From Prevotella sp. (GTDB lineage: Bacteria > Bacteroidota > Bacteroidia > Bacteroidales > Bacteroidaceae), in contig JAFZAH010000003.1 of NCBI GenBank assembly GCA_017548275.1, positions 1-64,000 of the forward strand: a stretch of 64,000 bases of DNA, given 5' to 3'. How positions within the stretch are numbered: the stretch's first letter is position 1; the number at the start of each line of letters is the position of its first letter. Below the pieces are notes generated by a model that saw only the letters and a program-made list of their open reading frames with translations, was not told the origin of the DNA and did not search any database. Of the stretch, positions 9,873 through 55,949 are shown piece after piece. The translations under genes were made by a program, and so were the position numbers.

Positions 9873-14686
<4,814 letters not shown>

Positions 14687-35154: not shown

Positions 35155-35421
35155 TTATTCCTCCCAGAGGGCGGAGTTAGCGCGGCTGTCCATGGTGCCG
35201 TCATCCTCGCCTATTCCGATAGCCCCGGCTATGCCTATGCCGTCAATCTCAGCGTATCCTTCATCCACCCATGCGGCATTACCATGGTCAGAAACGTCTA
35301 AGTCAGATCCGAATCGTGTTAAAGGTTCAAGTACTCTTCTCTCACCTGAGGCAGCACAAAGGTGTGCCTCTATCTGAACATGTGTGATTTCAACTTGCGG
35401 TGTAATATATGCTTGTTTCAT
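35155..35421 (-). CDS. Small protein following a leucine-rich surface protein (family unknown), member 1
   Basis: An 88-residue protein I cannot assign to a named family. It begins MKQAYITPQVEITHVQIEAHLCAASGE and ends NSALWEE. It is clearly related to the product of 40266-40535: both have YI/YV-x-PE or PQ near residue 5, a Cys-Ala pair near residue 23, a W-(V/I)-(D/N)-EGY segment mid-way and SR-x-N-x-x-LWE-(D/E) at the end. It has no signal peptide of the usual kind and is acidic. It starts 18 bases after the surface protein's stop, behind a strong ribosome-binding site (AAAGGAGG, 8 bases before ATG). A RiPP-like precursor, chaperone or regulator are all possible. Confidence 0.75.
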   Translation of the reverse strand: MKQAYITPQVEITHVQIEAHLCAASGERRVLEPLTRFGSDLDVSDHGNAAWVDEGYAEIDGIGIAGAIGIGEDDGTMDSRANSALWEE

Positions 35422-35439
35422 CTTTTCGTCCTCCTTTCT

Positions 35440-38400
35440 TTATCTGACCATGTATTTTTTTCCGTTGACAATATAGATGCCTTTTGGCAATCCGAGGAGT
35501 GACGTTCCTTCGCGTACTACTTGTCCGTTGATGTTAATCACCATGTCGATGTGCTTGACTGGTTTGTTCTCGGCTTTGGCCTCATTGATGATTTCCTGAA
35601 TCTCGTCGGCGGTCACCTCCTCAAATTCACCGAGGGCGAATGAGAATCCGTTAGCCTGTCCTTGATAGTGAATTTCGTCATGTCCGTTCTCCCATGCAGC
35701 AGCCTCATCGTTGGGCTGAATGATGGCAGTGTACTGCATCCAGTAGCCTCCACCGTTGTTTTTCGAGGTGTCGCGGCGATAAAATTTAGGCCATTTCTGC
35801 TCATCGCTCAATTGGCTGACAGCCTGCTCTATCTCCGCATCGGTCATATTTTCCGTATCGATATTGTTACCTTTGAGCCCGAGGAAATATGCGCCATTAG
35901 GAATCTTTTCTCCAGAGGTCACTTTACCGTTGGCATTCTTTTCGTTGGGCACAGGAGTACCTACGAACGTGTATTGGTATTTGCCGTCCTCAACTGGTTG
36001 CAGATAAACCGTCCGGTCTTTCAGGTTGATAACGTCATTGTCAGCAGCCGACCTTCTGACGGTAGACAACTTACATGTGACGGTGTTGGCCGCATATCCG
36101 GCTTTTACCTCTTCTAAAGCGTCCGGATCAACAGTGCCGTTGCTCTTGTAGAACTTCTTTTTGTATTCGACCTTAGGAATGTAGCAAGTGGAATATTTGC
36201 GTCTGTACGAGGGGCCTTCCACGTGTTTCGGGTGAAGCATATAAGGATGGTATGCACGCGCAAGGATACCTGCTATCTCGTTGTACTTGATTTTCTCGTC
36301 ATTGGTCGTTATGGTCTGCTTGTTAAACCATCCGCCTCCTTCGCCCTCGTATGTGGTGGTATGGTTGGAATCAAGCCAATCGGGCCATCCTTCTTCGCCC
36401 GGATTCACGCGCTGCAACTGGTCGTGTCCGAACTCGTCTTTCACGATTTTTGCGGGATGATACCATCTCTGCTCGACAGTCACGTTGATGCCGTTGATTG
36501 TCTCTTGGCCTAAAACCCGAACTTGGTCAAAGTAAGCCCCCGCCTTATCCATATAATAGGTATTGGCGATATTGGTAAAGAGGAAAAGCATTTTATCGGT
36601 GATGACACCGTTTTCGTCCATTTCCCCCTCCTCGAGAGCCACACCGCTGAATTCGCAGACATTAAAATCGGCATTGAAAGCAGACTTGAGTTGCTCTTCT
36701 GTACAGTTGAAGGGGAAGCAGATGGTGTACCATGTGTCGTCGAACACCTTGCTGAAGATTTCCTCATGGGGATCATAACTGTCCATATAGACGAACTGGC
36801 GCCATGCGAGGTTGGAATAATTACCGTCTTGCACCACTTGGTATTTGCCGTTGTTGATAGCCTTTTCGACAAGCCCCATGATATAACGCATCTCGTTTTC
36901 CTTGAGGTTGTGGCTGGGCCAGCGGCGGCCGTCTTGATCAGGATAAGCATAACAATCGGTAAAGAGCGGTTCGTCGTAAATACGCTGAACAACATTGACC
37001 CAATCGTCATCATTGCCGAACTCACCTGTGATTTCGACGCCTAAGATATTTTGAGCGGCAGATTTGTCTTTATTTTGGATAGCCGTCAAGAGGTCAGCGT
37101 TATGATACCAGGGATTACCTTTGAGGAAATAATCCATGGTGTCGATTTGCTTGTCACCGACTGTCACGGTCTGACCACTTGCGGGGTAATGGATTTCAAC
37201 GATGCTGTTATTTCCAACAACCACGCTGCGGAAGAAATCGTCGGCCTCATCAGAAGTCATGTTTGCCATGAGACTTCCTTCATTGGGATTGACAAGACTG
37301 GTGTTGGCATTGAGCGCATATTGTCCGAACGAACTGTCATCTGTGTTACCCGTCAGAGGTTTGATCAACGGAAGATTAGTCGGGTCGTTCTGTGTGAGAT
37401 AGAGGTCGCGGATGCCAGAGTTTCTGAAAGCCGACTCGCCAATCCACGTCACGCCCTCCGGAATGACAATCAATGGGAGCGACACACAGTTTTCAAACGA
37501 GCCCTCCGGGATGCTGGTCAGCGAGTTCGGCAGTCGCACCGACTCGAGCATGTGGCAGTTGTAGAACATCTTCACACCGATATTCTCCAGTCCCTCGGGC
37601 AAGATAGCGGTTTTCAAGGCTCTGCACTCCTCGAAAATGCTTGCTCCGAAATCGAGGTGTGTGATACCTCTCGCGAACTCAACGGAAGTCAGCGCATCGC
37701 ATGACATGAACGCTCCGTCGCCGATGCTTGTGACATTCGCGTCAATCTCGACCATCTGCAGGTTATCACAATTTTTGAAGGCTTCGCTACCGATACTTGT
37801 GATGTTATTGGGGAAATCGATATTCTCCACTTCGCATCCCTTTGCGAAATCGCCGGGTATCTTGTCGTAACTGCTGTCTGTGGGCAGTATCAGGGTACGC
37901 ACATGTTTGAATTTGCTTGAGAGTTTGACACCCCCACCAAAAGCATCAGCATCGCTGATTTTTGCCTCCGACAGGTCGAGTTCTCTGAGTGAGGTTGTTT
38001 GGTCATTATTGCCCTCTCCGGCATGACCATCGAGTCCGCTCCAGTCAGAGTCAGAGATTGTGTTTTTGAGTTTCAGTCTGACCACGTTGAGCAACGCCTG
38101 TTTCTCGGCAGCGGAGAGTTTATTATTACCTGTGAGGTTGCTACCGATAACATCGGTCTCGTCATGAGAGTCGAAGACGACGACATCACCTTTCTCATTA
38201 TCACACTCGATGGTGACGTAATTGCCGAGCACAATCTTATTGACCGTGAAACCGGCAGCAATGAGTTGCTGTTTGATTTCATTGTAGTCAACAGAAGCGC
38301 CTGTGACGGTCAGTGTACCGGTTGCCTTGTCATAGGTATAACCGGGGCCGTTGACGGTTTGCACGTTGGCGGCAGTGATGCCATAACCACTCATCACCTG

Positions 38401-39174
38401 GCTGATGGTTTTCGACTCAGTGGTACCCATGGTGAGCACGGGCGACTCCCAAGAAGTGGGGGTGTCAGGAATATCTGCAACCCACTGTCCGTTTTCCACA
38501 TACCAATAGACACCGCCCACCGCGATGAACTGGTTATCACCGGAAGGTGCGGCGGGCATCTCATCGGAAGTGGAATAATATGTCAGGTTTTCCTTTCTTT
38601 CACCATTATTATACCCTATTTCATTCCAAACGCGGTCTTTTCTGAAATAACTATAGGTGTATTTCAATACCTTAAAATAATAGGTGCCTTGATTTAGATG
38701 TTGGTTTCCAATCTGTTCGGCGCCAACTAGGTGGATATCCTCCTCATCTACTCCTTGGGGTGCGGTAGTGGATGGGCCTGTTGTGGTTCCGTTGCCTCCA
38801 AATTCGTCTTCCACTACTGTGATGTAATACTCATAATAGGTGCCAGTTGGAATGCCGACCACATCACCAGCACTTCCTTCATTGGCATGGGCGGTGTTAA
38901 TGTTTTCCGTCGTCCATCCCTCGTTGTTTTTATAACTGACATTGTTGCCAGCCTCGCTTTGTGATATGGGATTCCATTTTGTACCTGACTGATACAATGT
39001 GGCACCGACGAGCGCCTGATACCCCCCATTGGCGTTCTCCGTTGGAGTCCCGCTATGATACAAGAAGAATGTACCAGAAGCACCTTTCTGAAGAGCGTGT
39101 TTTGGACCTTGATTTTGTGCGTTTGCGCTCATGGCAAACAGTGCTGTCACCAACAGCAACAAAATTTTTCGCAT
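35440..39174 (-). CDS. BspA-like leucine-rich repeat surface protein with C-terminal sorting-like tail
   Basis: A 1244-residue exported protein. Order: signal peptide (MRKILLLLVTALFAMSANAQ); a variable beta region; a stretch with LRELDLSEAKI near residue 400; five to seven LRR_5 (BspA-type) repeats at about 395-590 (patterns like ITSIGSEAFKNCDNLQ and VTSIGDGAFMSCDALT); a central module with DDTWYTICFPFNCTEEQ; and a tail VVREGTSLLGLPKGIYIVNGKKYMVR shortened here to its end GIYIVNGKKYMVR, which resembles the type A tail of type IX secretion cargo. BspA proteins bind host proteins or other bacteria, but this one's partner is unknown. It is followed by the small gene at 35155-35421. Confidence 0.85.
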   Translation of the reverse strand: MRKILLLLVTALFAMSANAQNQGPKHALQKGASGTFFLYHSGTPTENANGGYQALVGATLYQSGTKWNPISQSEAGNNVSYKNNEGWTTENINTAHANEGSAGDVVGIPTGTYYEYYITVVEDEFGGNGTTTGPSTTAPQGVDEEDIHLVGAEQIGNQHLNQGTYYFKVLKYTYSYFRKDRVWNEIGYNNGERKENLTYYSTSDEMPAAPSGDNQFIAVGGVYWYVENGQWVADIPDTPTSWESPVLTMGTTESKTISQVMSGYGITAANVQTVNGPGYTYDKATGTLTVTGASVDYNEIKQQLIAAGFTVNKIVLGNYVTIECDNEKGDVVVFDSHDETDVIGSNLTGNNKLSAAEKQALLNVVRLKLKNTISDSDWSGLDGHAGEGNNDQTTSLRELDLSEAKISDADAFGGGVKLSSKFKHVRTLILPTDSSYDKIPGDFAKGCEVENIDFPNNITSIGSEAFKNCDNLQMVEIDANVTSIGDGAFMSCDALTSVEFARGITHLDFGASIFEECRALKTAILPEGLENIGVKMFYNCHMLESVRLPNSLTSIPEGSFENCVSLPLIVIPEGVTWIGESAFRNSGIRDLYLTQNDPTNLPLIKPLTGNTDDSSFGQYALNANTSLVNPNEGSLMANMTSDEADDFFRSVVVGNNSIVEIHYPASGQTVTVGDKQIDTMDYFLKGNPWYHNADLLTAIQNKDKSAAQNILGVEITGEFGNDDDWVNVVQRIYDEPLFTDCYAYPDQDGRRWPSHNLKENEMRYIMGLVEKAINNGKYQVVQDGNYSNLAWRQFVYMDSYDPHEEIFSKVFDDTWYTICFPFNCTEEQLKSAFNADFNVCEFSGVALEEGEMDENGVITDKMLFLFTNIANTYYMDKAGAYFDQVRVLGQETINGINVTVEQRWYHPAKIVKDEFGHDQLQRVNPGEEGWPDWLDSNHTTTYEGEGGGWFNKQTITTNDEKIKYNEIAGILARAYHPYMLHPKHVEGPSYRRKYSTCYIPKVEYKKKFYKSNGTVDPDALEEVKAGYAANTVTCKLSTVRRSAADNDVINLKDRTVYLQPVEDGKYQYTFVGTPVPNEKNANGKVTSGEKIPNGAYFLGLKGNNIDTENMTDAEIEQAVSQLSDEQKWPKFYRRDTSKNNGGGYWMQYTAIIQPNDEAAAWENGHDEIHYQGQANGFSFALGEFEEVTADEIQEIINEAKAENKPVKHIDMVININGQVVREGTSLLGLPKGIYIVNGKKYMVR

Positions 39175-39262
39175 GTTAAAAAAGAGTAGAATAAATGAGT
39201 TAATAATAAGCCAATCCTATATCGTTCTATCACCCCGAAGGGTGATTCCTGAAAATTTTGTG

Positions 39263-39292
39263 CAAAAGTAGTACTTTTTATTTAATTACCAA
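39263..39292 (-). promoter_or_regulatory. Full Bacteroidetes promoter for surface protein 1
   Basis: On the minus strand TTGG (39289-39292), an 18-base spacer, then TACTTTTG (39263-39270). The leader to the start codon is about 85 bases. Confidence 0.75.
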
Positions 39293-39465
39293 GACGGAAT
39301 AAGTGTAAAAATACACCGTGAAAACTATATTTAACGTATCAAATCGTAACAAGAATTACAAAAAAATGATTTAGAACACTGTATGACAGTTTATTAAGCT
39401 GTAAGCAGGTTAAATGTAACGTGGTCAAAATTTAGGATTTGTTAACGCACACAGGAGAAAATCAC

Positions 39466-39563
39466 GTGGAAGGTGGAAGGTGGAACGTGGAACGTGGAAC
39501 ATGGAACGTTGAACATGGAACGTTGAACGTTGAACATGGAACGTGGAAGGTGGAACGTGGAGG
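39466..39563. repeat. Heptamer array GTGGAAC/GTTGAAC (14 units)
   Basis: Fourteen 7-base units of the same family as 33303-33400 (GTGGAAG, GTGGAAC, ATGGAAC, GTTGAAC), again 98 bases. The last unit is GTGGAGG. Confidence 0.92.
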
Positions 39564-39598
39564 ATGAGCAACAACGGATTGAACGGATTAAACGAATT

Positions 39599-39960
39599 TT
39601 ATGTCTAAGGAATTTAGGAAGAAAGGAATGACGGCTGACGCCGGGTGATTTCGGAAAGAAATTGAAATGAAACGAACACAGATCATGCGAATCGACACGA
39701 ATAATTGGGTCTAAGGAATTTAGGAAGAAAGGAATGACGGCTGACGTCTAGAACTTTCGGAAAGAAATTAGAATAATTGGAATAATTAACTAAAGAATTA
39801 TTTAAGTGGTTCCTCAATTCCTTGATTCCGTAGAATGAAACGAACACAAATCACACGAATCGACACGAATAATTGGGTCTAAGGAATTTAGGAGAAAAGG
39901 AATATCGGCTGACACCGGGATTTTGGAAAGAATTTGGAATAATTGGAATAATTAGGCCAT
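39599..39960. repeat. Interspersed repeat family, copies 2-4
   Basis: Three partial copies begin at about 39599, 39710 and 39876 with GTCTAAGGAATTTAGGA, then GGCTGAC-type core and GGAAAGAAATT. Copies end in one of two ways: an ATGAAACGAACACA...GACACGAATAATT tail or a run of GGAATAATT units. Copy 4 continues into the segment shared with 34731-35105. Confidence 0.85.
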
Positions 39961-40112
39961 GAATTATTTAACATGAATGACCATGAATTTTACATGAATA
40001 TTTTGATGATTAATGGGATTATATGGGAATTGATGTTAGATACCCCGCCCCTACCCCGCCCCTTAAAGGGGTGGGGAACTGGCTGACGCCCTTGAAATGA
40101 TTACCAACTACC

Positions 40113-40176
40113 AGACGACCAAATGATCAAACAACTAAATGACCAAACGACCAAACGACTAAACGACCAAATGACC
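40113..40176. repeat. Octamer array AAACGACC/AAATGACC (8 units)
   Basis: Eight 8-base units: AGACGACC, AAATGATC, AAACAACT, AAATGACC, AAACGACC, AAACGACT, AAACGACC, AAATGACC. Sister of the array at 34991-35054. Confidence 0.88.
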
Positions 40177-40180
40177 CAAA

Positions 40181-40221
40181 AGGGACAAAAGAAGCGGGAT
40201 GTGACTCACGCCACATCCCGC
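40181..40221 (-). terminator. Terminator of surface cassette 2
   Basis: On the minus strand a perfect 10-base-pair stem GCGGGATGTG / CACATCCCGC with an 8-base loop is followed by TTCTTTTGT. It lies 44 bases after the small gene's stop. Confidence 0.85.
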
Positions 40222-40265
40222 TTGCAAAAAAATGATATTGTTATTATTGATTTACATCCGACTTT

Positions 40266-40535
40266 TTAGTCTTCCCAGAGGCTGGTGTTACCACGGCTGG
40301 GGAGATCCCAATTGTCATCACCGGCCACGGGTACAACAGTACCTTGTGAGAAGCCCACATTGGTGCCACTATACCCCTCGTTAATCCAATCGTTGTTGGA
40401 GAACTGGTTCTGATCCACTTTCTCGCCCCAGTATGCGTTGGGTTTGACGACGACTCTCTCATTACTGGCGCAAACCATGCTGATGAGTTCAGCCTGAATC
40501 AGTTCTATCTCGGGTCTTACATATATCTGTTTCAT
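40266..40535 (-). CDS. Small protein following a leucine-rich surface protein (family unknown), member 2
   Basis: An 89-residue protein, homologous to 35155-35421. It begins MKQIYVRPEIELIQAELISMVCASNE and ends NTSLWED. Conserved with member 1: the first six residues in pattern, a CA pair, WINEGY versus WVDEGY, and the C-terminal SRxNxxLWE block, while the middle varies. It starts 18 bases after the surface protein's stop, with the same intercistronic sequence carrying AAAGGAGG. No known family is recognised. The same order, spacing and ribosome site in both cassettes argue strongly that it is a real gene. Confidence 0.75.
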   Translation of the reverse strand: MKQIYVRPEIELIQAELISMVCASNERVVVKPNAYWGEKVDQNQFSNNDWINEGYSGTNVGFSQGTVVPVAGDDNWDLPSRGNTSLWED

Positions 40536-40553
40536 ATCTGTGTCCTCCTTTCT

Positions 40554-43500
40554 TTATTTCACCATATATTTCTTACCATTCACGATATAGAGACCCTTTG
40601 GAAGTCCTTCGAGAGAGGTTGAGCCGTTGCGCACGACTTGACCTTTGATGTTATAGACCACATTGAGGTGTATCTTCTGCACGGGCTCGTTGCGCTGTTC
40701 TGCCTCTTCCACAATCTTCTTGATGGCGGTCGTAGTTACCTCCTCCCACTCACCGAAGGAGACATTGAAACCATTGGCTTGAGCCTGCTGATAGTTGAGG
40801 TAATTCTCAATATTAGTAATAGCATTGGCATCGGGCTTGATAATGGCAGAGTATTTCGACCACTTATTACCCGTAGTTTGCTTCTTGCGATAGAACTTCG
40901 GATATGTGCCATAGACAGGAACTTCTTTTTGGCCTACTAGGACCTGCTCGATCCGAGTCTTCTGCACGTACACATAAGAGCCTTCACCCTCTGCTGTCTG
41001 AACATACTCGACGACTTCAGGATGATACAAGTATTCTCCACCTTCCTGAGGAGTATAGCCAGAAACCACATAGTCCTGCCCGCCTTCACTATGGTAAACA
41101 TAATTATCTATATAGTTTACTTCACCGCCAGACTGTTCAGCAAAGGCAGTAGCTTCATAATCGCCTCCGCCCGAAGCACCAGCATAGGTGTAAATTGGTA
41201 CGTTATATTGGCCACCGACATTATACCCCCATTCTCCTCCTGACCTTTGTTCGAATTCTACATTCCAACTACCTTGTCCTGGACCGCGGAAAACGAAGAT
41301 ATATTTTACTGTGCCATTTCGGTCAAATTCTACCTTATCATATAAGCCATTATTTTCACCCACATTTTGTCCCTCGTCCTTAGGAAAATAGGTACCATAA
41401 TATCCACCACTTCCTAATTCATAATAATCCTTTTGGGTGGTGCCTTGGTTATAATGCCCTTCACCTGCTGTCTCTGCCAGCGTCCATGCTGTTGCGGTAT
41501 GCGTGCCTTCTCCAGCATTTACATATACTATGGTAGGATCCGTCTTCTGATAGTAACCAGAACCAGCAGGATCGGCCTCAGTCCATGCTGAAGCAGTATA
41601 GTCACCATTTGTGCCGACGTATTCATAATACGCAGGAGTGATGACTTTATTATAATTTCCACCTTCTTGGGGTTTATACTCCATCACTGGAGTCACTCCA
41701 TCATCCTCAAAAACAGGTACTGATTGATCCTCATAGACATCTTCCATTGTTGTACCAACTTGCGGGACGGCAAGGAAGTATGCGGGTGTAGGCATGACTT
41801 TGTTGCCGTCGCTATCATATTCACTTGACGTAGATGAGCCACCGTTTGAGCCTGAACCTGTTCCAGTCTCTTCTTCACCCAACAATTTGCTTACGTCGCC
41901 AACATTTCCGATGAAGGTGTATGAGCCACCTGCATGGGTGATGGGGTTCTCGAAAGGAACAATACCAGATTCGTTTTGTATGGATGAATTGTATTCATTA
42001 CCATATTGTGTTTTATCCCAGTTGGGGTCATCAACTGTAGCGGGTTTGGTCACTGCCTGGTTTTCCGGAGTCCATTGTTCACCCGTTCTGGGGGTAGCAT
42101 TGATATAGACCGTAGCAGGATTACCCGGATTGGCACCGATTGACGGGTGTATCATATAAGGATGACCTGCAAGAGAGAGTATATTTTGTATGGTAAGGTA
42201 TTTACCATAAGCCTCACGCAGGGCCTGTTGCTCAGCAGAGGGATTAAGGTCTGTTGTAATGATTTTATCTGCGTTCTGGACTTGATTATTAAGATCTGTA
42301 TATTTCAACGGATACTCTACCACTGTGTTATTTCCGTCCTTTGATGTATAACGATATACATTACGTACCTCGCCGTTAATCTCACGCGTGCCTATTTTAA
42401 CACGATCATATTCCACATCATTATTATCTCGATAGGTTGTGACAGCTACATCGTCGAAGTGCATGACCATTTCGTAGGTAAAGTCATTGTTCGCGACGTT
42501 CGTATCATGGTCACCTTGCTCTATCATTTCGACACCGACAAACTCGACAATCTCCATTTGCTGGTTGAAAGCCTCGAAGAGTTCTTCGTCGGTCATGTGC
42601 CATGGGAAGCACATGGTGTACCATGTGTCGTCGTAGAGTTTATCGAACGGCACCTTACCCATATCTCCGATAGAGTAAGCCAACGGGAACTGACGCCAGC
42701 CCCATGCTGAGGGACACTGTCCGACACCGTTATCTGTGGCACCAGCGGCCAATCTCATCACATAATCGGTCTGGTTGGGATAATAAACATTGTCTTTATC
42801 TGGTCCCATTCTCGGGCCCGACGACTCCCATTCCCAAGGATTCACGGAGTAGGCCTGCGGCAAATACTGCAGGATATCATCACCAGTAGCATTATTAGTA
42901 CCGTTGTAATTGCTCTCTCCATATTTACCATTTACCAACCATTTAGAGACATTTTGGAAATTATTACCTTGATAATTCGATGACGCCATTTCAATCCAAC
43001 CTCCGGTTGTGCCGTCTCTTCCAGAGTCTCTCCATCCGTACACGTATTGATTCAAATCGCCTTCAGGGAAGAAATCACTTACGTCGATACCCTCGTAGAA
43101 TCCTTTCATCTCATCAGGGTAGTGGAGTGCGACAAGCGCATTACCAGTCCCGACACCTCTCTCGTCTGACAGTTCTTCCTGGTACCAAGTGACCACATCT
43201 TCATAACCAACATCCCAATGGTGAGGGTTATTTGATGTAAAGTCTTCATCTTGCAGGTGAGCAGTAGGCACAGTGTTGTTACCCGAGGTACGTTGATATG
43301 TGAACGAGGCTCCACTCTGATTAGACTGATTATATGTAGGATCCATGGAAAAAATCTTAGGCAAGGTGGCGAGGCTTGTAGCCATAATATACAGGTCAGT
43401 CAGTCCACCCAACTCGAAAGCCTTCTCCAAGATATATTCGACGCCTTCAGGTATGGTAACGCTGTGCAAGTCGAATGTCTCATAGAAAGACAATACACCA

Positions 43501-44960
43501 ATCACTCTACAAGTAGAAGGAATACGAATAGACTCTAAGAGGTAACACTGGTTGAACATATAGTCACTGATATTGGTGACGCCCTCAGAGAGTGTGACGT
43601 GTTTGAGCATGAAGTTTCTCATGAATACAGCTTCACCGAAAGTACATGTCCCCTGAAGAGGCTTCATGGTCACATCGGTAAGTTGTGACTGTGTTTTAAC
43701 ATCACGAAAAGCGCCAGCCTCCACCACTTGTAATGTACTCGGGAGTTCCAAAGTCAAGAGATCATGGCCATAGAATGCTTCGAAACCAATACGGGTATAA
43801 CCTTCGGGGATAGTGATGTTACGGATAGGTCCCGTACCACTGGAACTAGCGAAAGTGTGTGGGGGAATCTCAGTGTTGCCCTCTGGCAGCACACAAGTCA
43901 CCAGACTATAGTTACTCAGATAATAGAGTGCATTGCTTGTAATAGTTTCTCCAGGCCAACGTGTGACAGTGTCATGAGTAATAACGTCACCGCATTCTGT
44001 CGTGACGGTACTTTTTCGTGTATAATCCCCACCACTGTCATTCTGTCCAAAGGCACCAGGCACAGTGATTTCACAGGATTCAAACGTGCTATGGAGGAGA
44101 TCCATCTCATTGAGACTTGAGGATGGAAATAAAGAATTTTGACCATTATTTCTTGATATGTCAGAGACTGCAATTTGACCGCCGAGGGTAAGTTTCTCTA
44201 AAACATCTGTATGGTTGTCGCCTGTCAACTCACAACCACTACTGGCATTGTTGGGGTCATTGGGAAAGAATCTTACGCAGAAATCATTGAGATTCCCCTT
44301 TTGGAAGGAATAAGCAGCGAAATGAGTTTTGTCCACTTCGCCTGTCTCGGTTGCATCGTATGCTCCGGCAATTTTAAGGTTAGGATTATGACCATCTGTG
44401 GTGAGATTAGCCATTGCAGCCACATCGGTTACACCATTTGGCAGGCGGATAAATTCAGCGCCGGAACCGGATATAGTTTCAACGCGCTCAAGTTCGTCAC
44501 TATTTGGTTTGTAATGATTCTTATTCCATGAAGCACTGTCGAAAATCATCGCCATAACCTGTGCTTGGGTCACACCTGCAGCCAATGTCACTTCACTGAG
44601 ATCGATGTATTTGAATTTCGAAAAGCCCTTACACTTTAAGGTTGAAAGTGCGGCGAAGTCAGCAGCATTGAGTTGACCAACAATTTTCAAAGTTTGGGCA
44701 TCATTCTGCTCGCCCAATCCATTGAATGGTTCACGTAAATCTACAGGATCCCCATTAGAATCAGCGACAGCAGCCACAAAGGCGGCAATGGCCCCAGGGC
44801 CACTCACTGTTAGAGTTTGCGTTTGATTATTCTCTTGTTTAGGAGAGTCACCCGTGATAGTGTAAGTGCCATCTGTCCATGGGTGATTCGCATCAAACGG
44901 TGCCGCATTGGCTCCTATAGAAACCAATGCCATTGTAAATAACAATAATAACTTTTTCAT
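40554..44960 (-). CDS. BspA-like leucine-rich repeat surface protein with Tyr/Gly-rich insert
   Basis: A 1468-residue exported paralogue of the protein at 35440-39174. Order: signal peptide (LLLLFTMALVSIGANA); an N-terminal region; LRR_5 repeats at about residues 355-525 (ITIPEGYTRIGFEAFYG and similar); a shared module with DDTWYTMCFPWHMTDEE; then, unlike its paralogue, an insert of roughly 270 residues (about 1070-1345) rich in Tyr, Gly and Glu with repeated PQEGG-Y, AGSGYY and AGEGHY blocks; then KFYRKKQTT and the sorting-like tail ending GLYIVNGKKYMVK. Likely outer-surface adhesin. It is followed by the small gene at 40266-40535. Confidence 0.85.
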   Translation of the reverse strand: MKKLLLLFTMALVSIGANAAPFDANHPWTDGTYTITGDSPKQENNQTQTLTVSGPGAIAAFVAAVADSNGDPVDLREPFNGLGEQNDAQTLKIVGQLNAADFAALSTLKCKGFSKFKYIDLSEVTLAAGVTQAQVMAMIFDSASWNKNHYKPNSDELERVETISGSGAEFIRLPNGVTDVAAMANLTTDGHNPNLKIAGAYDATETGEVDKTHFAAYSFQKGNLNDFCVRFFPNDPNNASSGCELTGDNHTDVLEKLTLGGQIAVSDISRNNGQNSLFPSSSLNEMDLLHSTFESCEITVPGAFGQNDSGGDYTRKSTVTTECGDVITHDTVTRWPGETITSNALYYLSNYSLVTCVLPEGNTEIPPHTFASSSGTGPIRNITIPEGYTRIGFEAFYGHDLLTLELPSTLQVVEAGAFRDVKTQSQLTDVTMKPLQGTCTFGEAVFMRNFMLKHVTLSEGVTNISDYMFNQCYLLESIRIPSTCRVIGVLSFYETFDLHSVTIPEGVEYILEKAFELGGLTDLYIMATSLATLPKIFSMDPTYNQSNQSGASFTYQRTSGNNTVPTAHLQDEDFTSNNPHHWDVGYEDVVTWYQEELSDERGVGTGNALVALHYPDEMKGFYEGIDVSDFFPEGDLNQYVYGWRDSGRDGTTGGWIEMASSNYQGNNFQNVSKWLVNGKYGESNYNGTNNATGDDILQYLPQAYSVNPWEWESSGPRMGPDKDNVYYPNQTDYVMRLAAGATDNGVGQCPSAWGWRQFPLAYSIGDMGKVPFDKLYDDTWYTMCFPWHMTDEELFEAFNQQMEIVEFVGVEMIEQGDHDTNVANNDFTYEMVMHFDDVAVTTYRDNNDVEYDRVKIGTREINGEVRNVYRYTSKDGNNTVVEYPLKYTDLNNQVQNADKIITTDLNPSAEQQALREAYGKYLTIQNILSLAGHPYMIHPSIGANPGNPATVYINATPRTGEQWTPENQAVTKPATVDDPNWDKTQYGNEYNSSIQNESGIVPFENPITHAGGSYTFIGNVGDVSKLLGEEETGTGSGSNGGSSTSSEYDSDGNKVMPTPAYFLAVPQVGTTMEDVYEDQSVPVFEDDGVTPVMEYKPQEGGNYNKVITPAYYEYVGTNGDYTASAWTEADPAGSGYYQKTDPTIVYVNAGEGTHTATAWTLAETAGEGHYNQGTTQKDYYELGSGGYYGTYFPKDEGQNVGENNGLYDKVEFDRNGTVKYIFVFRGPGQGSWNVEFEQRSGGEWGYNVGGQYNVPIYTYAGASGGGDYEATAFAEQSGGEVNYIDNYVYHSEGGQDYVVSGYTPQEGGEYLYHPEVVEYVQTAEGEGSYVYVQKTRIEQVLVGQKEVPVYGTYPKFYRKKQTTGNKWSKYSAIIKPDANAITNIENYLNYQQAQANGFNVSFGEWEEVTTTAIKKIVEEAEQRNEPVQKIHLNVVYNIKGQVVRNGSTSLEGLPKGLYIVNGKKYMVK

Positions 44961-44990
44961 TGTGTATAGATAAGTATTTATATATTTTCG

Positions 44991-48937: not shown

Positions 48938-48938
48938 T

Positions 48939-48973: not shown

Positions 48974-49001
48974 GGATATGTGATTTGGGCATAAATTAAA
49001 A

Positions 49002-49397: not shown

Positions 49398-49402
49398 TCA
49401 AT

Positions 49403-49511: not shown

Positions 49512-49519
49512 ATAAAGAT

Positions 49520-50680
49520 ATGAACATCGAACATGTAAGAAGTCGCTTTATCAAGCATTTTGATGGTAAGACCGGAAATATCTATCATTCACCGGGCCGT
49601 ATTAACCTGATAGGTGAGCACACCGACTATAATGGCGGATTCGTATTCCCCGGCGCCGTGGATTGCGGCATTATGGCCGAGGTGCGCCCGAATGGCCTGA
49701 ACACGGTGATTTGCTATGCCATCGACCTGAAAGACAAGGTGGAATTCAAGGTTGACGACCCTGTTGGTCCGCGCACATCGTGGGCACGTTACATCTACGG
49801 CATTGTGCAAGAGATGCGCAAACGTGGCGTGGATGTGAAAGGATTCAACACGGCATTTTCGGGTGATGTTCCCCTTGGTGCGGGTATGTCGTCGTCGGCA
49901 GCGCTGGAGAGTTGTTTCGCTTTCGCACTGAACGACCTGTTCGGCGACAACAAGGTGTCGAAATGGGATATGGCTTTGGCCGGTCAAGCCACCGAGCATA
50001 ACTACTGCGGCGTGAACTGCGGCATCATGGACCAGTTCGCAAGCGTGTTCGGCCAGGCCGGCAAACTGATGCGCCTGGACTGCCGTAGCCGCGAGTTTGA
50101 ATATTTCCCGTTCAATCCTGAGGGTTATAAACTGGTATTGCTCAATTCGTGCGTGAAACATGAGTTGGCAGGTTCTCCTTATAACGACCGCCGCAACTCT
50201 TGTGAGAACGTAGTGAAGCACATCGCCGCGAAACATCCAGAAGGCAAGTTTGAGACATTGCGTGACTGCACTTGGGAGCAGTTAGAAGAAGTTCGCGCCG
50301 AAGTAGGCGAAGAGGACTACAAGCGTGCTCACTTCGTGTTGGGCGAGAAAGACCGCGTATTGGCCGTTTGCGACGCACTGGTGGCAGGCGACTACGAGAC
50401 TGTGGGTCAGAAGATGTACGAGACACACGAGGGACTGTCGAAGGAGTATGAGGTAAGTTGCGAAGAACTTGACTTCCTGAACGACATCGCCCGCGAGAAC
50501 GGTGTGACAGGCAGCCGTATCATGGGCGGCGGCTTCGGCGGCTGCACCATCAACCTGGTGAAAGACGAGTTGTACGAGCCCTTCATCACTGACGCGAAAA
50601 AACGCTATGCCGAGAAATACGGCAAAGAGCCTCAGGTCATCGACGTGGTGATTGGCGACGGTTCGAGGAGGATTCTGTAA
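49520..50680 (+). CDS. galK: Galactokinase
   Basis: GalK phosphorylates galactose to galactose 1-phosphate with ATP, the first committed step of the Leloir pathway. This 386-residue GHMP kinase has the signature GRINLIGEHTDYNGG (near residue 27), the ATP loop PLGAGMSSSAALE (near 118) and the C-terminal GSRIMGGGFGGCTIN motif. It is the last gene of the galactose cluster; galT and galE are not in the window. A perfect terminator follows. Confidence 0.96.
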   Translation: MNIEHVRSRFIKHFDGKTGNIYHSPGRINLIGEHTDYNGGFVFPGAVDCGIMAEVRPNGLNTVICYAIDLKDKVEFKVDDPVGPRTSWARYIYGIVQEMRKRGVDVKGFNTAFSGDVPLGAGMSSSAALESCFAFALNDLFGDNKVSKWDMALAGQATEHNYCGVNCGIMDQFASVFGQAGKLMRLDCRSREFEYFPFNPEGYKLVLLNSCVKHELAGSPYNDRRNSCENVVKHIAAKHPEGKFETLRDCTWEQLEEVRAEVGEEDYKRAHFVLGEKDRVLAVCDALVAGDYETVGQKMYETHEGLSKEYEVSCEELDFLNDIARENGVTGSRIMGGGFGGCTINLVKDELYEPFITDAKKRYAEKYGKEPQVIDVVIGDGSRRIL

Positions 50681-50708
50681 TAAAGCCCTCACCCTGGCCA
50701 TCCCTGAA

Positions 50709-50740
50709 GCCCCTATCCCAACCCTCCCCGAGGGGAGGGC
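50709..50740. repeat. GC palindrome between galK and its terminator
   Basis: CCCTCCCCGAGGGGAGGG is a near-perfect palindrome. Relatives lie at 47024-47060, 61069-61098, 61151-61195, 62744-62860 and weaker ones at 22305-22335, 33427-33465, 34922-34955 and 40043-40075. Confidence 0.75.
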
Positions 50741-50775
50741 GTGGTTAGTCGGACGGTAAGCAAGAAAACTATAAG

Positions 50776-50817
50776 AAAAAGACACCCGGTCTGTGAAAGG
50801 AGACCGGGTGTCTTTTT
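50776..50817. terminator. Bidirectional terminator after galK
   Basis: A perfect 17-base-pair stem (AAAAAGACACCCGGTCT and complement) with an 8-base loop between converging genes. The A- and T-runs at its ends serve both strands. Confidence 0.92.
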
Positions 50818-50852
50818 TGATGATAGGCTATTCTTTAAAGTCTATATGAGAC

Positions 50853-51362
50853 TCAACAACAGTTGGTGAGGGGATTGCCGCAGAGCCATTCAAGTTCAAT
50901 CCAACCAGTGTGCTTGCCGTCGGTGGTGGTGACTTTGACCCAATCGCCCTTGATGTCGATGGGGCGAAGGACCAACTCCTCTTTGAAGGAATAGACCACC
51001 TTGGCACGAGCGGAGGGAGTGGCGCGGAGGTAGAGCGTCTGTCCGCCGTAATTGCGTGTGCCTACACCGATGCAGGAATAGTGGATGTAATATTTGCGTG
51101 CGCCTGTTAACTTGTACATTCCACCGTCGGGAACATAATAGTTGTTGTCGCAGATAACCCACCAGCCGTTGACAGGCGATTCCACATTGAGCATGCCATC
51201 GATGGACGTGGAGACTTTTTGCACGATTTTTCCATTTGGCGCATTGCGGATGTTGGTGTATTTTCCTACTGTGTCCCAGAAGAACACATCAAGGCTCTGA
51301 GCCTTCACTCCGATGGCCGCAAACATGAGCAGCGCCATCATTATCAATTTCCTTGTTTTCAT
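50853..51362 (-). CDS. Exported SH3-like domain protein
   Basis: A 169-residue exported protein with a signal peptide (IMMALLMFAAIGVKAQ) and two bacterial SH3-like domains: residues about 25-75 (TNIRNAPNGKIV, WWVICDNNYYV) and about 100-160 (LYLRATPSARAKVVYSF, WVKVTTTDGKHTGWIE). Such domains often bind peptidoglycan or mediate protein contacts. It ends in NCC. Converges on galK; function unknown. Confidence 0.8.
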   Translation of the reverse strand: MKTRKLIMMALLMFAAIGVKAQSLDVFFWDTVGKYTNIRNAPNGKIVQKVSTSIDGMLNVESPVNGWWVICDNNYYVPDGGMYKLTGARKYYIHYSCIGVGTRNYGGQTLYLRATPSARAKVVYSFKEELVLRPIDIKGDWVKVTTTDGKHTGWIELEWLCGNPLTNCC

Positions 51363-51461
51363 AATGGTTAAAAATGATTATAGCAGAAATAAAGATTAAG
51401 GGAGATAAAAGGAGATAAAAGACAATACAATGCTGTTTGCCTGTTATCTCCTATTTACTCA

Positions 51462-52214
51462 TTATTTGTTAATTGTTTTCAAGATGTTTTGCCACTCTTC
51501 GGGCATGTCTTTGAGGTTGTTGGAGGCTTTTACGAGTTTTTTGGCAGCATCGTAAAGCTTATACTCCTTTTTGGACGTTTCATTCGTATAGCAGAAAAGT
51601 GTTTCGGCGGTTTTCAACTGTCCGTTTTTCCAGACATCCTTCGTAAACTCCTCCTCCGAAGCACTGTTTGACCCTCCGTTGTAGATGGCTTTATCAGCAG
51701 CAGAGAACACGGGATTTTGAAGTGAGGGCTCGCCCAGCGATCCATAGCGCTCAAAGCATTTTTTGTCGGGTTTCCACAGCAGGATGGTGCTGTAGGTGCG
51801 CGATTCGCCTGCTCCGAGGAAGATGTCGGTGTTGCCGTCGAAATCAGCATCCACAAAGTGGATGAACTCATCAGGCTGCTGGTCATACCAGTCGGTGAAG
51901 AGTTCGTCAGTGATGGTCTGAATAACTTTGCCGTCGAGGGAGATTTCCGCCTTCTGCCCGTCATCGAGTTTTGACAATTTCACGCTGATGTGTTTGTCTT
52001 TCCCCGGACAATCAGCGAGCGGCATAGGTTTGGCAACGGGAGCAGCCTCTGCCACTTCTTTCGATTCGGCGGCGGTGGTGTCAGTTGCGTCCTTCTGGTC
52101 ATTCTCAGCAACTTCTGTAGTAGCATTTTCGGATGTTTGAGCAGCCTCGTTCGGCTTGTTTGTACAAGCGCATATCAGAGCGCCTGCGAGCAAAAATAAA
52201 TACGTTTTTTTCAT
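51462..52214 (-). CDS. Lipoprotein with Asp-rich repeat-like domain, function unknown
   Basis: A 250-residue lipoprotein; the start at ATG 52214 gives MKKTYLFLLAGALICAC with Cys17 as lipid site. A disordered Glu/Ala/Thr-rich linker (about 20-65) leads to a beta domain with FVDADFDGNTDIFLG, a calcium-binding FG-GAP/VCBS-like motif. No closer family is recognised. An upstream ATG would put a second hydrophobic stretch before the signal and is unlikely; a -7 box at 52244-52251 lies between the two. Confidence 0.75.
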   Translation of the reverse strand: MKKTYLFLLAGALICACTNKPNEAAQTSENATTEVAENDQKDATDTTAAESKEVAEAAPVAKPMPLADCPGKDKHISVKLSKLDDGQKAEISLDGKVIQTITDELFTDWYDQQPDEFIHFVDADFDGNTDIFLGAGESRTYSTILLWKPDKKCFERYGSLGEPSLQNPVFSAADKAIYNGGSNSASEEEFTKDVWKNGQLKTAETLFCYTNETSKKEYKLYDAAKKLVKASNNLKDMPEEWQNILKTINK

Positions 52215-52243
52215 ATAAATAATGGTTATAATTATTTTGATTG

Positions 52244-52251
52244 CAAAAATA
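52244..52251 (-). promoter_or_regulatory. Bacteroidetes -7 box for the lipoprotein gene
   Basis: TATTTTTG on the minus strand, 30 bases before the chosen start. Confidence 0.62.
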
Positions 52252-52419
52252 AGAAATAATGCGGACACGGCAAACATTTTGTATGATATTTTTGAAAAAT
52301 CGGTTTATCTGGCGGAAGCAAGTTTTTGATGCTGACGGAATCTGAATGTTATGCAAACGATTGCACATACCTATTTATAAAATATGTGAAAATAGAGTCC
52401 ATTGATAGACGGAAATGGT

Positions 52420-52427
52420 TATTTTTG
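52420..52427 (+). promoter_or_regulatory. Bacteroidetes -7 box for the exported amylase
   Basis: TATTTTTG, an exact match, 42 bases before the amylase start. Confidence 0.65.
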
Positions 52428-52468
52428 CATCATCTTTCCCTTGAAAAATCAATAAATCATCCATTTAT

Positions 52469-55400
52469 ATGAAACGAAGCATTACCTTAGTACTGATGTG
52501 CCTCATGGCCGTACTCACCATGTCGGCACAAGGTTGGCCAGCCAATTACGGCGGAGTCATGTTGCAAGGATTCTATTGGGACTCATTTGAGGACACCAAG
52601 TGGAACACGCTCACCACCCAGGCCGACGAATTATCCTCTTATTATGATTTGATATGGGTACCCAACTCTGGCCAGACGAAAGCCGACCAATGGAACTCTC
52701 CTGGCAACTGGGGTTATGAGAACATGGGTTACAGTCCTGTTTATTGGCTGCGTCACAACTCCTGCTTCGGCACGCAAGAGGAGTTGATGAACATGATTCA
52801 GACCTTCAAGGCCAAGGGAACCAAATTTATCGAGGACGTTGTGATTAACCACAAAAACGGACTGACCAACTGGGCCGACTTCCCCGATGAGACGGTGACG
52901 GGTCCCACGACAAACGCGACCTACACCGTAACATGGGCACAAGACATGCAAGCATTATGGGGTATCTGCTCGAACGACGAGATTTACAGCAACGGCGGAG
53001 AGCATGACGGTGTGACCTATGTCAGTGACGGCAGTGCCGCCGCAGACGAGGCCGACAATTTTGATGGTTGCCGCGATTTGGACCACACCGACGCCCGTGT
53101 ACAGCAGAACGTCTATACCTATCTGGACTTTCTCATCAAAGAGTTGGGTTACGCCGGATTCCGTTACGACATGGTGAAGGGCTACAAGGCTTATTACACC
53201 GGACTGTATAACCTGCATGCCCAACCTGAGTTCAGCGTTGGCGAGTACTGGGACGGCAATTACGACAATGTGGCCGGTTACTGGATAACAGAGACGGGCA
53301 TCCCCGCAGACGGTGTCATCCAGTCAGCCGCTTTCGATTTCCCTTTGAAAGACCGTATCAACGAAGCCTTTAACAACGAAAACTGGTCGGCCTTGTCGAA
53401 CAAAGGTGTGGCAGGCGACCCGAACATGAGCCGTTACTCGGTGACCTTCGTTGACAACCACGACACATATCGCGAGGAGTTTTACCGTGTGAACAGCAAT
53501 GTGCTGGCCGCTAACGCGTTCATTCTCGCCATGCCCGGTACGCCTTGTATCTTCCTTCCCCACTGGAAGCAACATAAGGCAGCATTGAAGAAGATGATAG
53601 CCGCCCGTAAAGCCGCCGGCATCACTAACCAAAGCCCCATCACAGCACAGTACGAATTGGACGGCGGTTACTACCTGAAAGTGACCGGTGAGACAGGCTC
53701 CGTCATTCTAACCTGCGGTAAGCCCTCGGGCGACATCGACCTGGACCAGCACACCCTCGTGGTGAGTGGCGAGAATTTCGCATTCTACCTTTGGGATGGC
53801 GTTTACGACCAAGAGACGTACGATGAGATTGAAGCCGAAAGTGCCCAAGACATCTGCATCTACGTGAGAGACAACGGTCAGGGCGCGCCTTACCTCTATG
53901 CCTGGAACGGCGGCACCGAAATAAACGGTGGCTGGCCAGGTAAACTGATGAGCGACAAGGTGACCTTGGGTGACGGAACCACTTGGTATAAGCAGTCGTT
54001 CAAGAGTTCAGAGTTGAATGTCATCGTGACCTACAACAATGGCAAACAGACTCAAAATATCGAGAATATCACAGAAGACAAATATATCGTCTATTACAAG
54101 GACGACGACCGCAAATATGCCGATTACAGCGGATTGTACAACGGCGACCGCAACAGCGATTTTGTCTATGGTTATTTCGACGCGCCATCGGGTTGGAACA
54201 AAGCCTGGGCATGGAACGACCTGTTCTATGACATTGAGAACAAGAACTATACTGGCGGTGAATGGCCGGGTGCTACCATGACGAAAGTAGGCGTATCAAG
54301 CACCGGCAATGACATCTACCGTTGGCGCATCGACAAGGATTTGAACGAGGGTGCCCCCAACCACATCATCTTCAACAACGGCAACGGCGGACAAACCACT
54401 ACCCTGCCCTTCATCAACGGCGCTTACAATGACCAGAACGGGATCGCCTCGGAGAATATGCTGTCGTTCATGCCTGTAGCTCTTGACGGCGGCACCATGG
54501 TGACAGCATCCAACTGGAATGGCAACGAGGAGCAAGTGGCACAAGGCTCCGCCAACAATCCTGTAACCCTGCGTCTGTATTATCCCGCCGGCACCTATAC
54601 AGCACAAGCCATTGTGCGCGGCACCGACGGCGGCAGTGTAACCCTGACCGCCGGTACCTCGACCGCCTCGGTCAGCCTGACAGGCATGTCCGCCGACTCG
54701 CCTTCAAGCGTGACGACCGACGGTGTCGTGGAACAGAGTGTCGAAGTGTTGAACAACGGTTGGCAGAAAGTGCAGACCACCTTCACCACCACCGAAGATG
54801 AACCGTTGGTGATACGACTCACTTCTGAAGCCTCGTCATGGCAAGTGGGCACTGTCACCCTGTTGAAAGACGCAGACACCCCGAGCGGAGATAAATACCA
54901 GACGACCGCCACAACGAAAGTGACCGAGACAAGCGTCGATGTGACCGACCTGAGCCGCTTCAGTTTCTTCGGCCGCGGTACAAACAAGAACGCTTTGGTC
55001 ATCGCATCAGCCGGTCAGGCTGCAGCCGCCCTGCCCTGTAACGCCATAGTTGACGGGCAGTGCAGCCAGTTGGTGCTCACCGACGGAGCACACGACTTCG
55101 CCGCCCCAACCGATTTCACAGCAGAGAGCGTAACCTATGACCGCAGCATCGCCGCCGACAAGAAAGTGACCGTTTGTCTGCCCTTTGACATTACCACTGA
55201 AGAGATGGCATCGGCAGGCATCACCGCCTACGAGATGGATCGTGTGAGCGCAGAAGGCTCATTCCATTTCCGCCCTGTCAGTGAGATGAGCGCAAACACG
55301 CCCTACGTCGTCGTACTGTCGGCCGCCGGCAATCCCTTCGCCTCATTAAGCGGCAAGAACATCAGCGCCACCCCGGAAGAGATTGCCAAAGACTTCGACG

Positions 55401-55732
55401 GCATACAATTCACTGGAACCATGAAGCGCGTGGTGCTCAATTCGGGCGACGGCACTGTGTATTACGGTTATAAAGACGGCACATTCGTGAAGGTGGGCAA
55501 TAATATAGGCGTGAACCCGTTCAGGGCTTACATCAAGAGCAACCGCGAACTGGGCAACGCCGTGAAAGCGGTATTTGACGTGTCAGCCATCCGCACCGTG
55601 ACAGCAGAAGAGGAAAACGCCTCAGATGCCATCTACAGTATTGACGGACGCTTGGTGAGCCGCGACGGCAAGACCTCGGGCCTTCACAAAGGCGTTTATA
55701 TTCAAAACGGCAAGAAAATGGTTGTGAAATAA
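52469..55732 (+). CDS. Exported GH13 alpha-amylase with CBM26-like domains and sorting-like tail
   Basis: A 1087-residue exported starch-degrading enzyme. Order: signal peptide (LVLMCLMAVLTMSAQ); GH13 barrel (about 25-400) with VVINHK, GFRYDMVKGY (nucleophile Asp near 233), SVGEYWDG (Glu near 258) and FVDNHDT (Asp near 330); two starch-binding modules of CBM26 type (about 465-550 and 560-660, with YAWNGGTEINGGWPG and WAWNDLFYDIENKNYTGGEWPG shortened here to GGEWPG); a beta region; a module with TVCLPFDITTEEM, like that in the two leucine-rich proteins; and a tail ending GVYIQNGKKMVVK. A small gene follows 19-25 bases later. No SusC/SusD pair is near. Confidence 0.9.
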   Translation: MKRSITLVLMCLMAVLTMSAQGWPANYGGVMLQGFYWDSFEDTKWNTLTTQADELSSYYDLIWVPNSGQTKADQWNSPGNWGYENMGYSPVYWLRHNSCFGTQEELMNMIQTFKAKGTKFIEDVVINHKNGLTNWADFPDETVTGPTTNATYTVTWAQDMQALWGICSNDEIYSNGGEHDGVTYVSDGSAAADEADNFDGCRDLDHTDARVQQNVYTYLDFLIKELGYAGFRYDMVKGYKAYYTGLYNLHAQPEFSVGEYWDGNYDNVAGYWITETGIPADGVIQSAAFDFPLKDRINEAFNNENWSALSNKGVAGDPNMSRYSVTFVDNHDTYREEFYRVNSNVLAANAFILAMPGTPCIFLPHWKQHKAALKKMIAARKAAGITNQSPITAQYELDGGYYLKVTGETGSVILTCGKPSGDIDLDQHTLVVSGENFAFYLWDGVYDQETYDEIEAESAQDICIYVRDNGQGAPYLYAWNGGTEINGGWPGKLMSDKVTLGDGTTWYKQSFKSSELNVIVTYNNGKQTQNIENITEDKYIVYYKDDDRKYADYSGLYNGDRNSDFVYGYFDAPSGWNKAWAWNDLFYDIENKNYTGGEWPGATMTKVGVSSTGNDIYRWRIDKDLNEGAPNHIIFNNGNGGQTTTLPFINGAYNDQNGIASENMLSFMPVALDGGTMVTASNWNGNEEQVAQGSANNPVTLRLYYPAGTYTAQAIVRGTDGGSVTLTAGTSTASVSLTGMSADSPSSVTTDGVVEQSVEVLNNGWQKVQTTFTTTEDEPLVIRLTSEASSWQVGTVTLLKDADTPSGDKYQTTATTKVTETSVDVTDLSRFSFFGRGTNKNALVIASAGQAAAALPCNAIVDGQCSQLVLTDGAHDFAAPTDFTAESVTYDRSIAADKKVTVCLPFDITTEEMASAGITAYEMDRVSAEGSFHFRPVSEMSANTPYVVVLSAAGNPFASLSGKNISATPEEIAKDFDGIQFTGTMKRVVLNSGDGTVYYGYKDGTFVKVGNNIGVNPFRAYIKSNRELGNAVKAVFDVSAIRTVTAEEENASDAIYSIDGRLVSRDGKTSGLHKGVYIQNGKKMVVK

Positions 55733-55757
55733 AAAGAATCATAAAGATAACATGACA

Positions 55758-55949
55758 ATGGAAAAGACTTTATATATACGACCGGAAATACGATGGGTGG
55801 AATTAGATTCCTATGCATTGCTGGAAGACGGTTTCAGTGAGACACCCAGCAGTGAAACCCCTGAAGTGAACGATACAGAACTCGACTCCAACCGAGGTTA
55901 CTTTGAGAGCGACGAATACAATACCCCAAAAGTGAATGTTTGGGATTGA
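55758..55949 (+). CDS. Small protein following the exported amylase (family unknown), member 3
   Basis: A protein of 63-65 residues (ATG at 55752 or 55758; the second fits the other members better). It begins MEKTLYIRPEIRWVELDSYA and ends NVWD. The YIRPEI start and the Trp-Asp end match members 1 and 2, while the middle is shorter and acidic, with no Cys. There is no signal peptide. Unlike its two relatives it lacks a Shine-Dalgarno site. It follows a large exported protein with the same C-terminal module and tail, and precedes a strong terminator. Confidence 0.68.
   Translation: MEKTLYIRPEIRWVELDSYALLEDGFSETPSSETPEVNDTELDSNRGYFESDEYNTPKVNVWD

Follow-up and report, generated by a model that had tools for sequence, protein, structure and literature searches.

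The window analysed here, a 64,000-nucleotide (nt) stretch of a Prevotella sp. genome (contig JAFZAH010000003.1, positions 1 to 64,000), holds three large genes for exported proteins, each with a small gene whose ATG lies 18, 18 and 19 nt, respectively, behind the stop codon of its large partner. We consider it rather probable that these small genes encode precursor peptides similar to those of ribosomally synthesised and post-translationally modified peptides (RiPPs), which would be matured in trans and co-expressed with surface proteins. The source genome assembly (3.2 Mb, 87% complete) belongs to a large genus.

Three large and small gene pairs

The features of the three loci are as follows (aa, amino acids; LRR, leucine-rich repeat):

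35155..35421, minus strand: small gene 1 (P0004, 88 aa), YITP leader, LCAAS motif, LWEE end; GGAGG 8 nt upstream of the ATG
35440..39174, minus strand: large exported BspA-type LRR protein (P0001, 1244 aa), tail GIYIVNGKKYMVR
35072..35099, minus strand: terminator-like stem-loop of 12 pairs, 3' of small gene 1
40266..40535, minus strand: small gene 2 (P0005, 89 aa), YVRP leader, MVCAS motif, LWED end; GGAGG 8 nt upstream of the ATG
40554..44960, minus strand: large exported BspA-type LRR protein (P0002, 1468 aa), tail GLYIVNGKKYMVK
40192..40223, minus strand: terminator-like stem-loop of 14 pairs, 3' of small gene 2
52469..55732, plus strand: large exported alpha-amylase/CBM26 protein (P0003, 1087 aa), tail GVYIQNGKKMVVK
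55752..55949, plus strand: small gene 3 (P0006, 65 aa), YIRP leader, divergent LLEDGFS replacing the small-x-S motif, VWD end
55965..56002, no strand assigned: terminator-like stem-loop of 17 pairs, 3' of small gene 3, listed by the scan on the minus strand only

All six frames announced in a preliminary description of this DNA were located, and the small products start and end as it had stated: MKQAYITP (P0004), MKQIYVRP (P0005) and (MT)MEKTLYIRP (P0006) contain the Y(I/V)-x-P type of start, and LWEE, LWED and VWD close them. A stem-loop also follows each small gene as described; on the plus strand, the T-run of the third already forms, by eye, the last part of its stem. The terminator scan listed none within the 18-19 nt gaps between large and small genes. 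When the window was scanned for frames of 35-110 aa with YxxP near the start and no overlap with a long open reading frame (ORF), the three small genes were matched together with a single further item, a short out-of-frame fragment overlapping small gene 2.

The description had also proposed one module common to the three large proteins, and this stands in part. P0001 and P0002 (BspA-type LRR by Pfam) are homologous, with 28% identity over 627 aa and 53% over the last 121 aa, and the predicted structure of their C-terminal domain reached a mean local confidence (pLDDT) of 31.7. P0001 and P0003 (alpha-amylase and CBM26 by Pfam) have just two segments in common: the tail, 35 aa long (43%, E 7e-5), and a C-(F/L)-PF stretch of 16 aa (E 0.021).

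The small family and its surface-protein partners

No Pfam, NCBIfam or PHROGs family matched P0004-P0006 above cut-off, and one DUF2173 match remained sub-threshold (E 0.08). A search with P0005 gave 13 matches in other genomes of the genus, one of them false (L018, inside another protein), and all 12 real ones lie 12-207 nt behind a gene with a G-x-Y-I-x-N-G-K-K type tail or a close variant. The first profile, built from these matches, found five members in the source genome, three of them those of the window, and all five stand behind tail genes; both searches are free of circularity with respect to the tail gene. With a wider profile we obtained 22 matches in the source genome, one of which was false (L097). 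The remaining 21 members comprise 17 behind tail genes (two of them, L095 and L096, cut by contig ends), a figure that is partly circular since the profile included small genes found behind tail genes (12 of this same genome in addition to the window's three). The other four are L093 and L094, directly before tail genes, L091 at the edge of a contig, and L098, which lies between terminase-like genes. Across the genus the family was matched in 130 of 150 genomes, with 1-22 matches each, and YxxP subfamilies beyond those found may be under-detected.

We found the association with tail genes confirmed in a held-out set of the 23 best-scoring loci of the genus, at most one per genome and none used in the profile: a tail gene lies directly upstream in 20 of them, compared with 9 among 1016 background genes (150 aa or longer) taken from 80 loci of PqqD relatives (Fisher 2e-32); at L343 the distance was counted from an incorrect start. 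Of the three remaining loci, L349 has its small gene ahead of a lipoprotein-like gene, and L347 and L353 are similar to L098. The small genes are thus not placed at random, and the linkage is independent of the domain type of the large protein, as had been supposed, with small genes standing behind BspA-type LRR and amylase tail genes alike. The small partner of a tail gene is nevertheless optional, since only 15 of the 50 examined tail genes, from 60 tail-profile matches in the source genome, are followed by one. Two of the 35 others have a small gene directly in front (L033, L042), and two of the ten unexamined matches were later seen to carry one (L095, L096).

At C39:16323-22543 of the source genome (L038, L046, L090, L092) two adjacent, very large tail genes (frames of 1661 and 1850 aa) each have a small gene, and the two small genes are 85% identical with a ratio of nonsynonymous to synonymous substitution rates (dN/dS) of 0.17. 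A comparable pair occurs at L140:3405-11082 in genome G260, where two large genes share their tail end and each is followed by a small gene, the small genes being 90% identical to one another; here the tail appears to be duplicated jointly with the small gene. At L099:554-4005 (source genome, C5) the small gene lies between a short gene of the phrog_22323 family, of unknown role, and a terminase-large-like gene (phrog_2, E 2e-17); L347 has a similar terminase-like layout (by eye) and L353 a similar small protein. Loci of this type may belong to a mobile element with a precursor of its own. A capsule role, considered because of an NTP_transf_5 gene next to an orphan copy, was dropped, as that neighbour belongs to a run of sugar-transferase genes (by eye).

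We compared 71 distinct small genes, one of which (from L342) has a wrong start. Column counts give the consensus MKKxY(I/V)xPx(I/T/L/V)E(I/V)(V/I)x(V/I/L)Exxx(I/M/L)(L/I)(A/C)(A/G)S, followed by an acidic central part that varies and, at the C-terminus, by a W with acidic residues. Y and P are present in all 71, having been selected for, and the pattern flanking them is conserved. The hydrophobic-small-x-S motif lies at about residue 22. Such a motif, with S or T, occurs 11-22 residues past the Y in 49 of the 71 (shuffle mean 9.0, maximum 18), and a W within the last eight residues in 60 (shuffle mean 14.8, maximum 24); the control used 500 shuffles per sequence downstream of YxxP, and the selecting profile itself favours both the motif and the late W. 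Past residue 8 the mean net charge is -9.1. By eye, no signal-peptide-like stretch is visible in the small proteins, and a lipobox was ruled out because the hydrophobic signal segment before the Cys is missing (by eye).

The usable pairs of the family show purifying selection, as the preliminary description would have it if the genes are real: of 17 pairs at 50-97% identity, nine had a computable dS (the other eight being saturated), and dN/dS is below 1 in every one of them (0.08, 0.10, 0.13, 0.17, 0.17, 0.19, 0.28, 0.29 and 0.55), with dS near or above 1 in most and some members shared between pairs. An AGGAG or GGAGG ribosome site precedes 19 of the 71 small genes vs 19 among 776 long genes from related loci, an enrichment that speaks for translation. 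In two loci (L348:1659-352, minus strand, and L110:1501-2610) an exported protein's signal peptide follows the small ORF in the same frame with no stop in between, as a natural fusion or through loss of a stop.

The tails of the large proteins had been likened to type IX secretion signals, and the small proteins considered possible companions of export or surface attachment. The source genome encodes SprA, PorU (partial frame) and PorV; on the other hand, the tails of P0001-P0003 gave no TIGR04183 or PF18962 match among the Pfam and NCBIfam type IX models, and a profile comparison of the window tails with classical type IX tails was weak (hhalign, 13 columns, probability 34%). Our data do not support a tie of the small protein to type IX export as such. 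SprA was found in 22 of 24 small-bearing genomes and was unmatched in G407 and G517, where a strict link fails; in both, the small gene that we read precedes a lipoprotein-like gene, a layout also present in the SprA-positive genomes G204 and G475, and L093 and L094 precede their tail genes. Among 27 loci at the level of the order (by eye), 13 small genes follow, at a distance of up to 85 nt, a gene bearing a tail of one of several types, and five stand ahead of lipoprotein-like genes. Because of the lipoprotein-like neighbours, the several tail types and the missing type IX model match, we prefer to speak of the partners as surface proteins, many of which have a type IX-like tail.

A PqqD-family recognition element and its cassette

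PMC12710340 includes YxxP, for lasso peptides, in its list of characterised motifs that are read by RiPP recognition elements (RREs). One copy of a PqqD-family gene was found in the source genome (G000:C56:18693-18908), and such a gene occurs in 23 of the 24 small-bearing genomes. In the order set (n=393) it is present in 17 of 18 small-bearing genomes vs 225 of 375 others (p 0.0023), and in the genus set (n=150) in 118 of 130 vs 9 of 20 (p 7e-6). Restricting the latter to good-quality genomes (n=68) gives 57 of 58 vs 3 of 10 (p 9.5e-7), and to those at least 97% complete (n=45) 38 of 38 vs 2 of 7 (p 1.7e-5); all these p values ignore phylogeny, and three PqqD-negative genus genomes were identified by elimination.

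In the source genome, PqqD lies behind genes for an HPr-kinase-like enzyme (HprK) and an S26-like peptidase (L169, about 8220-9921). All four cassette genes (hyp, HprK, S26, PqqD) are present, the first of them (L169:7621-8214) encoding an exported-looking protein with no family beyond one weak CDC45 match. We read the loci of the best 80 of 237 PqqD relatives in the named genome collection (L189-L268, up to 94% identical to the source PqqD). With one exception (bacterium UBA3734) these are titled Prevotella, Prevotellaceae or split-off genera, and they include many rumen metagenome-assembled genomes, Prevotella denticola, Hoylesella marshii, H. oralis, Hallella seregens, Xylanibacter caecicola and Segatella albensis. 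Of these 80 Prevotellaceae-type loci, 75 carry HprK and S26 genes, 71 have the order hyp-HprK-S26-PqqD on one strand, and 73 encode the additional exported-looking protein (152-197 aa in those read) as the first cassette gene.

The kinase consensus keeps a His 18 residues upstream of GxGKS, then DD, with one P-loop Gly replaced by Ala in Prevotella. This H/GxGKS/DD pattern recurs in 10 of 11 cassettes from seven families, the exception being the frame taken for G394. PMC10368454 gives the same residues for BsfK, a kinase of precursor peptides that works with help from its RRE. Conserved in the peptidase are G.SM.PFL, HRI and GDGN, motifs that we take to be of the Ser/His S26 type. Its family matches were weak: Pfam S24 stayed below cut-off, and the signal peptidase I model of NCBIfam exceeded its cut-off in the G278 protein alone. 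For PqqD, the sequence profile gave TfuB1 as its sole match in the PDB at E<=1 (E 0.0044). When a model of the L189 homolog, 94% identical to the source PqqD (pLDDT 85.7), was compared with the PDB, the first six matches all came from the lasso B1-leader entries 6jx3, 5v1u and 5v1v (E 5e-4 to 4e-3, TM score 0.70-0.76), followed by the PqqD entry 5sxy.

Since the Prevotella cassette lies away from the small genes, any action on them would there be in trans. Outside the genus, small genes are found inside PqqD operons at seven loci of other Bacteroidales. From 71 such PqqD loci, the model recovered PqqD in 54 (17 were dropped), and same-strand YxxP small ORFs number seven in 106 kb within 1 kb of PqqD vs six in 842 kb farther out (p 2e-4). 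One of eight inner matches had been discarded as lying inside PqqD, and L282, among the seven kept, is doubtful (with six, p 0.001). The clear operon cases are L280, L281, L305, L309, L314 and L316, to which we add L132, outside the counted seven because its small frame has no ATG. L281, L305, L309 and L316 show the order PqqD, small gene, HprK, S26, with an ATP-binding cassette (ABC) exporter gene farther down in the first three. L132 shows a type IX cargo gene (TIGR04183 above cut-off), PqqD, the small frame, whose start is uncertain, HprK, S26 and ABC. In G407 one region (L137/L188) contains PqqD, NTP_transf_5 and HprK, and, farther along, a small gene in front of a lipoprotein-like gene, S26 and ABC. 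Three ABC exporters from cassettes were scanned, and their best models were MsbA, type I secretion or CydD.

The precursor interpretation and its rivals

The preliminary description had named a peptide with a leader-like start as one alternative, and this fits the YxxP leader, the co-occurrence with PqqD and the linkage to PqqD operons. We propose the following course. The large surface protein and its small partner would be produced from one transcript, as suggested by the short gap and by a terminator placed only after the small gene. The PqqD-family RRE would then bind the N-terminal YxxP, as the motif, the co-occurrence, the operons elsewhere and the predicted fold would have it. The HPr-kinase-like enzyme may act on the peptide presented by PqqD, most likely by Ser/Thr phosphorylation, judging from its catalytic residues and from BsfK in the available text of PMC10368454. 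The S26-like peptidase would cut near (L/I/M)-(A/C)-x-S, about residue 22, and free the acidic, W-ended part; alternatively, the Ser of this motif could be the phosphosite. Finally, an ABC exporter, encoded in the cassettes of several other families and not adjoining that of Prevotella, might export the product, which might act with or on the partner surface protein; export and action form the weakest step. One machine acting in trans would thereby serve many dispersed precursors, 21 in the source genome and 1-22 matches per positive genome of the genus.

Several observations weigh against this interpretation. The small-x-S motif is missing in P0006, and YxxP is short, so that part of the resemblance could have arisen through convergence. 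The dN/dS values come mostly from divergent, overlapping pairs. The co-occurrence tests neglect phylogeny and contain exceptions in both directions: 12 of the 130 small-bearing genus genomes are without PqqD, one of them of good quality (G130), G442 has seven small matches and no PqqD match at 89% completeness, PqqD occurs in nine of the 20 genus genomes without small genes, and it is common across the order (242 of 393 genomes). Near the Prevotella cassette there are only four small genes in 1.38 Mb (the 80 loci). No ABC exporter was found in these 80 loci at E<=1e-30 or beside the source PqqD, and by eye no lasso cyclase or B2 protease was seen in 19 kb around the latter. Outside the genus, a same-strand YxxP ORF within 1 kb is missing from 46 of the 54 PqqD loci, and the opposite strand gave three inner and three outer matches, the inner ones not family-like (by eye) and at least some of them antisense to PqqD and uncovered by the mask. 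These last two results slightly lowered our confidence in the precursor reading.

The foremost rival, which we regard as unlikely, is that the small protein works unmodified, as a tail-specific chaperone or escort of the large protein, PqqD being unrelated. The tight linkage to tail genes (20 of 23 genus loci and, with its partial circularity, 17 of 21 source members) would be expected from such a protein, and an acidic small protein would face a basic GKK tail. However, some small genes lie in PqqD operons or before lipoprotein-like genes, 35 of 50 examined tail genes have none behind them (L033 and L042 having one in front), the middle of the small protein is very variable, and the correlation with PqqD would be left unexplained. 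More improbable still is a secreted signalling or antimicrobial peptide that hitch-hikes in surface-protein operons and is processed by the same PqqD cassette. The arrangement of leader and variable core, and the subfamily beside terminase-like genes in the source genome and (by eye) at L347, which indicates that the genes may travel, are consistent with it, whereas the linkage to tails is strong for hitch-hiking, and we noticed no immunity gene next to the copies that were read, though no search was aimed at one. A regulatory short ORF, whose translation or mRNA would matter as attenuator or 3' stabiliser of the large gene, is very improbable: its position at the 3' end ahead of a strong terminator in the window would suit it, but both protein ends are conserved with dN/dS below 1, and the gene occurs before as well as after its partners and in PqqD operons.

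If the precursor interpretation is true, an unnamed small-protein family present in 130 of 150 genus genomes would receive a function class, the HprK/S26/PqqD cassette conserved around PqqD in Prevotellaceae would receive a set of substrates, and RiPP-type maturation would be linked to surface proteins, with many dispersed precursors for one machine in trans. A bolder extension, which is possible and, to our mind, doubtful, is a genome-wide system of surface peptide-tagging in Bacteroidales, in which one PqqD-kinase-peptidase machine would serve up to about 20 co-transcribed precursors and each surface protein would have a modified peptide of its own as partner, anchor or tag. RRE-kinase peptide systems are already known (bsf, in the part of PMC10368454 available). 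New, as far as literature searches show, would be the combination of a single machine with numerous scattered precursors, the majority of which lie in surface-protein operons: among open-licence full texts, preprints not included, we found no paper on the link between small gene, PqqD and surface protein, and in the available portions of a Bacteroidales RiPP survey (PMC10352776) and a rumen lasso survey (PMC7533575) the term YxxP does not occur and no such arrangement is described.

The resemblance to known systems is partial in each case. Type IX cargo with a type A sorting domain (TIGR04183) has in common an L-x-x-G-x-Y tail and a basic C-terminus; the window tails differ in being unrecognised by the model and in sharing a stretch of only about 35 aa. 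Double-glycine/C39 peptides likewise have a short N-terminal leader ending in small residues. Double-glycine leaders end in GG, GA or GS with an L-x4-E-L-x2-I pattern, whereas the family consensus ends in (A/C)(A/G)S, and as it contains no GG this leader type was ruled out; a few members (e.g. ILAGG) come near. The pairing of kinase and PqqD is also found in the NCBIfam families HprK_rel_A (TIGR04352), HprK_rel_B (TIGR04355), ScmC (TIGR04249) and ScmD (TIGR04248). The source kinase matches TIGR04352 and TIGR04249, the G278 kinase TIGR04355 and TIGR04249, and the G278 PqqD TIGR04248, all far below the curated cut-offs. SynChlorMet cassettes additionally hold radical SAM enzymes.

The closest parallel lies with lasso precursors that have a discrete B1 protein (TfuB1, TbiB1) and with the bsf system (BsfK, BsfB1; PMC10368454, as far as its text was available): the YxxP leader, the PqqD-fold recognition element and an HPr-kinase-like enzyme with H/GxGKS/DD are common to them and to the family described here, as is an NTP_transf_5 gene beside one cassette (L188; others by eye). 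Unlike in those systems, the putative precursors of the source genome are dispersed (21) and mostly beside surface-protein genes; unlike in lasso systems, the cassette contains an S26-like peptidase, and no cyclase or B2 was seen beside the source cassette (by eye). The small proteins also differ from lasso peptides in having no fixed Thr at the leader end (-2) and in carrying (A/C)-(A/G)-S 17-19 residues past the Y, the leader end being a guess. A separate lasso-like cluster is present in another genome of the same genus (G476, L178:8180-14803), with PqqD, asparagine-synthetase-like, HprK-like and ABC genes (by eye).

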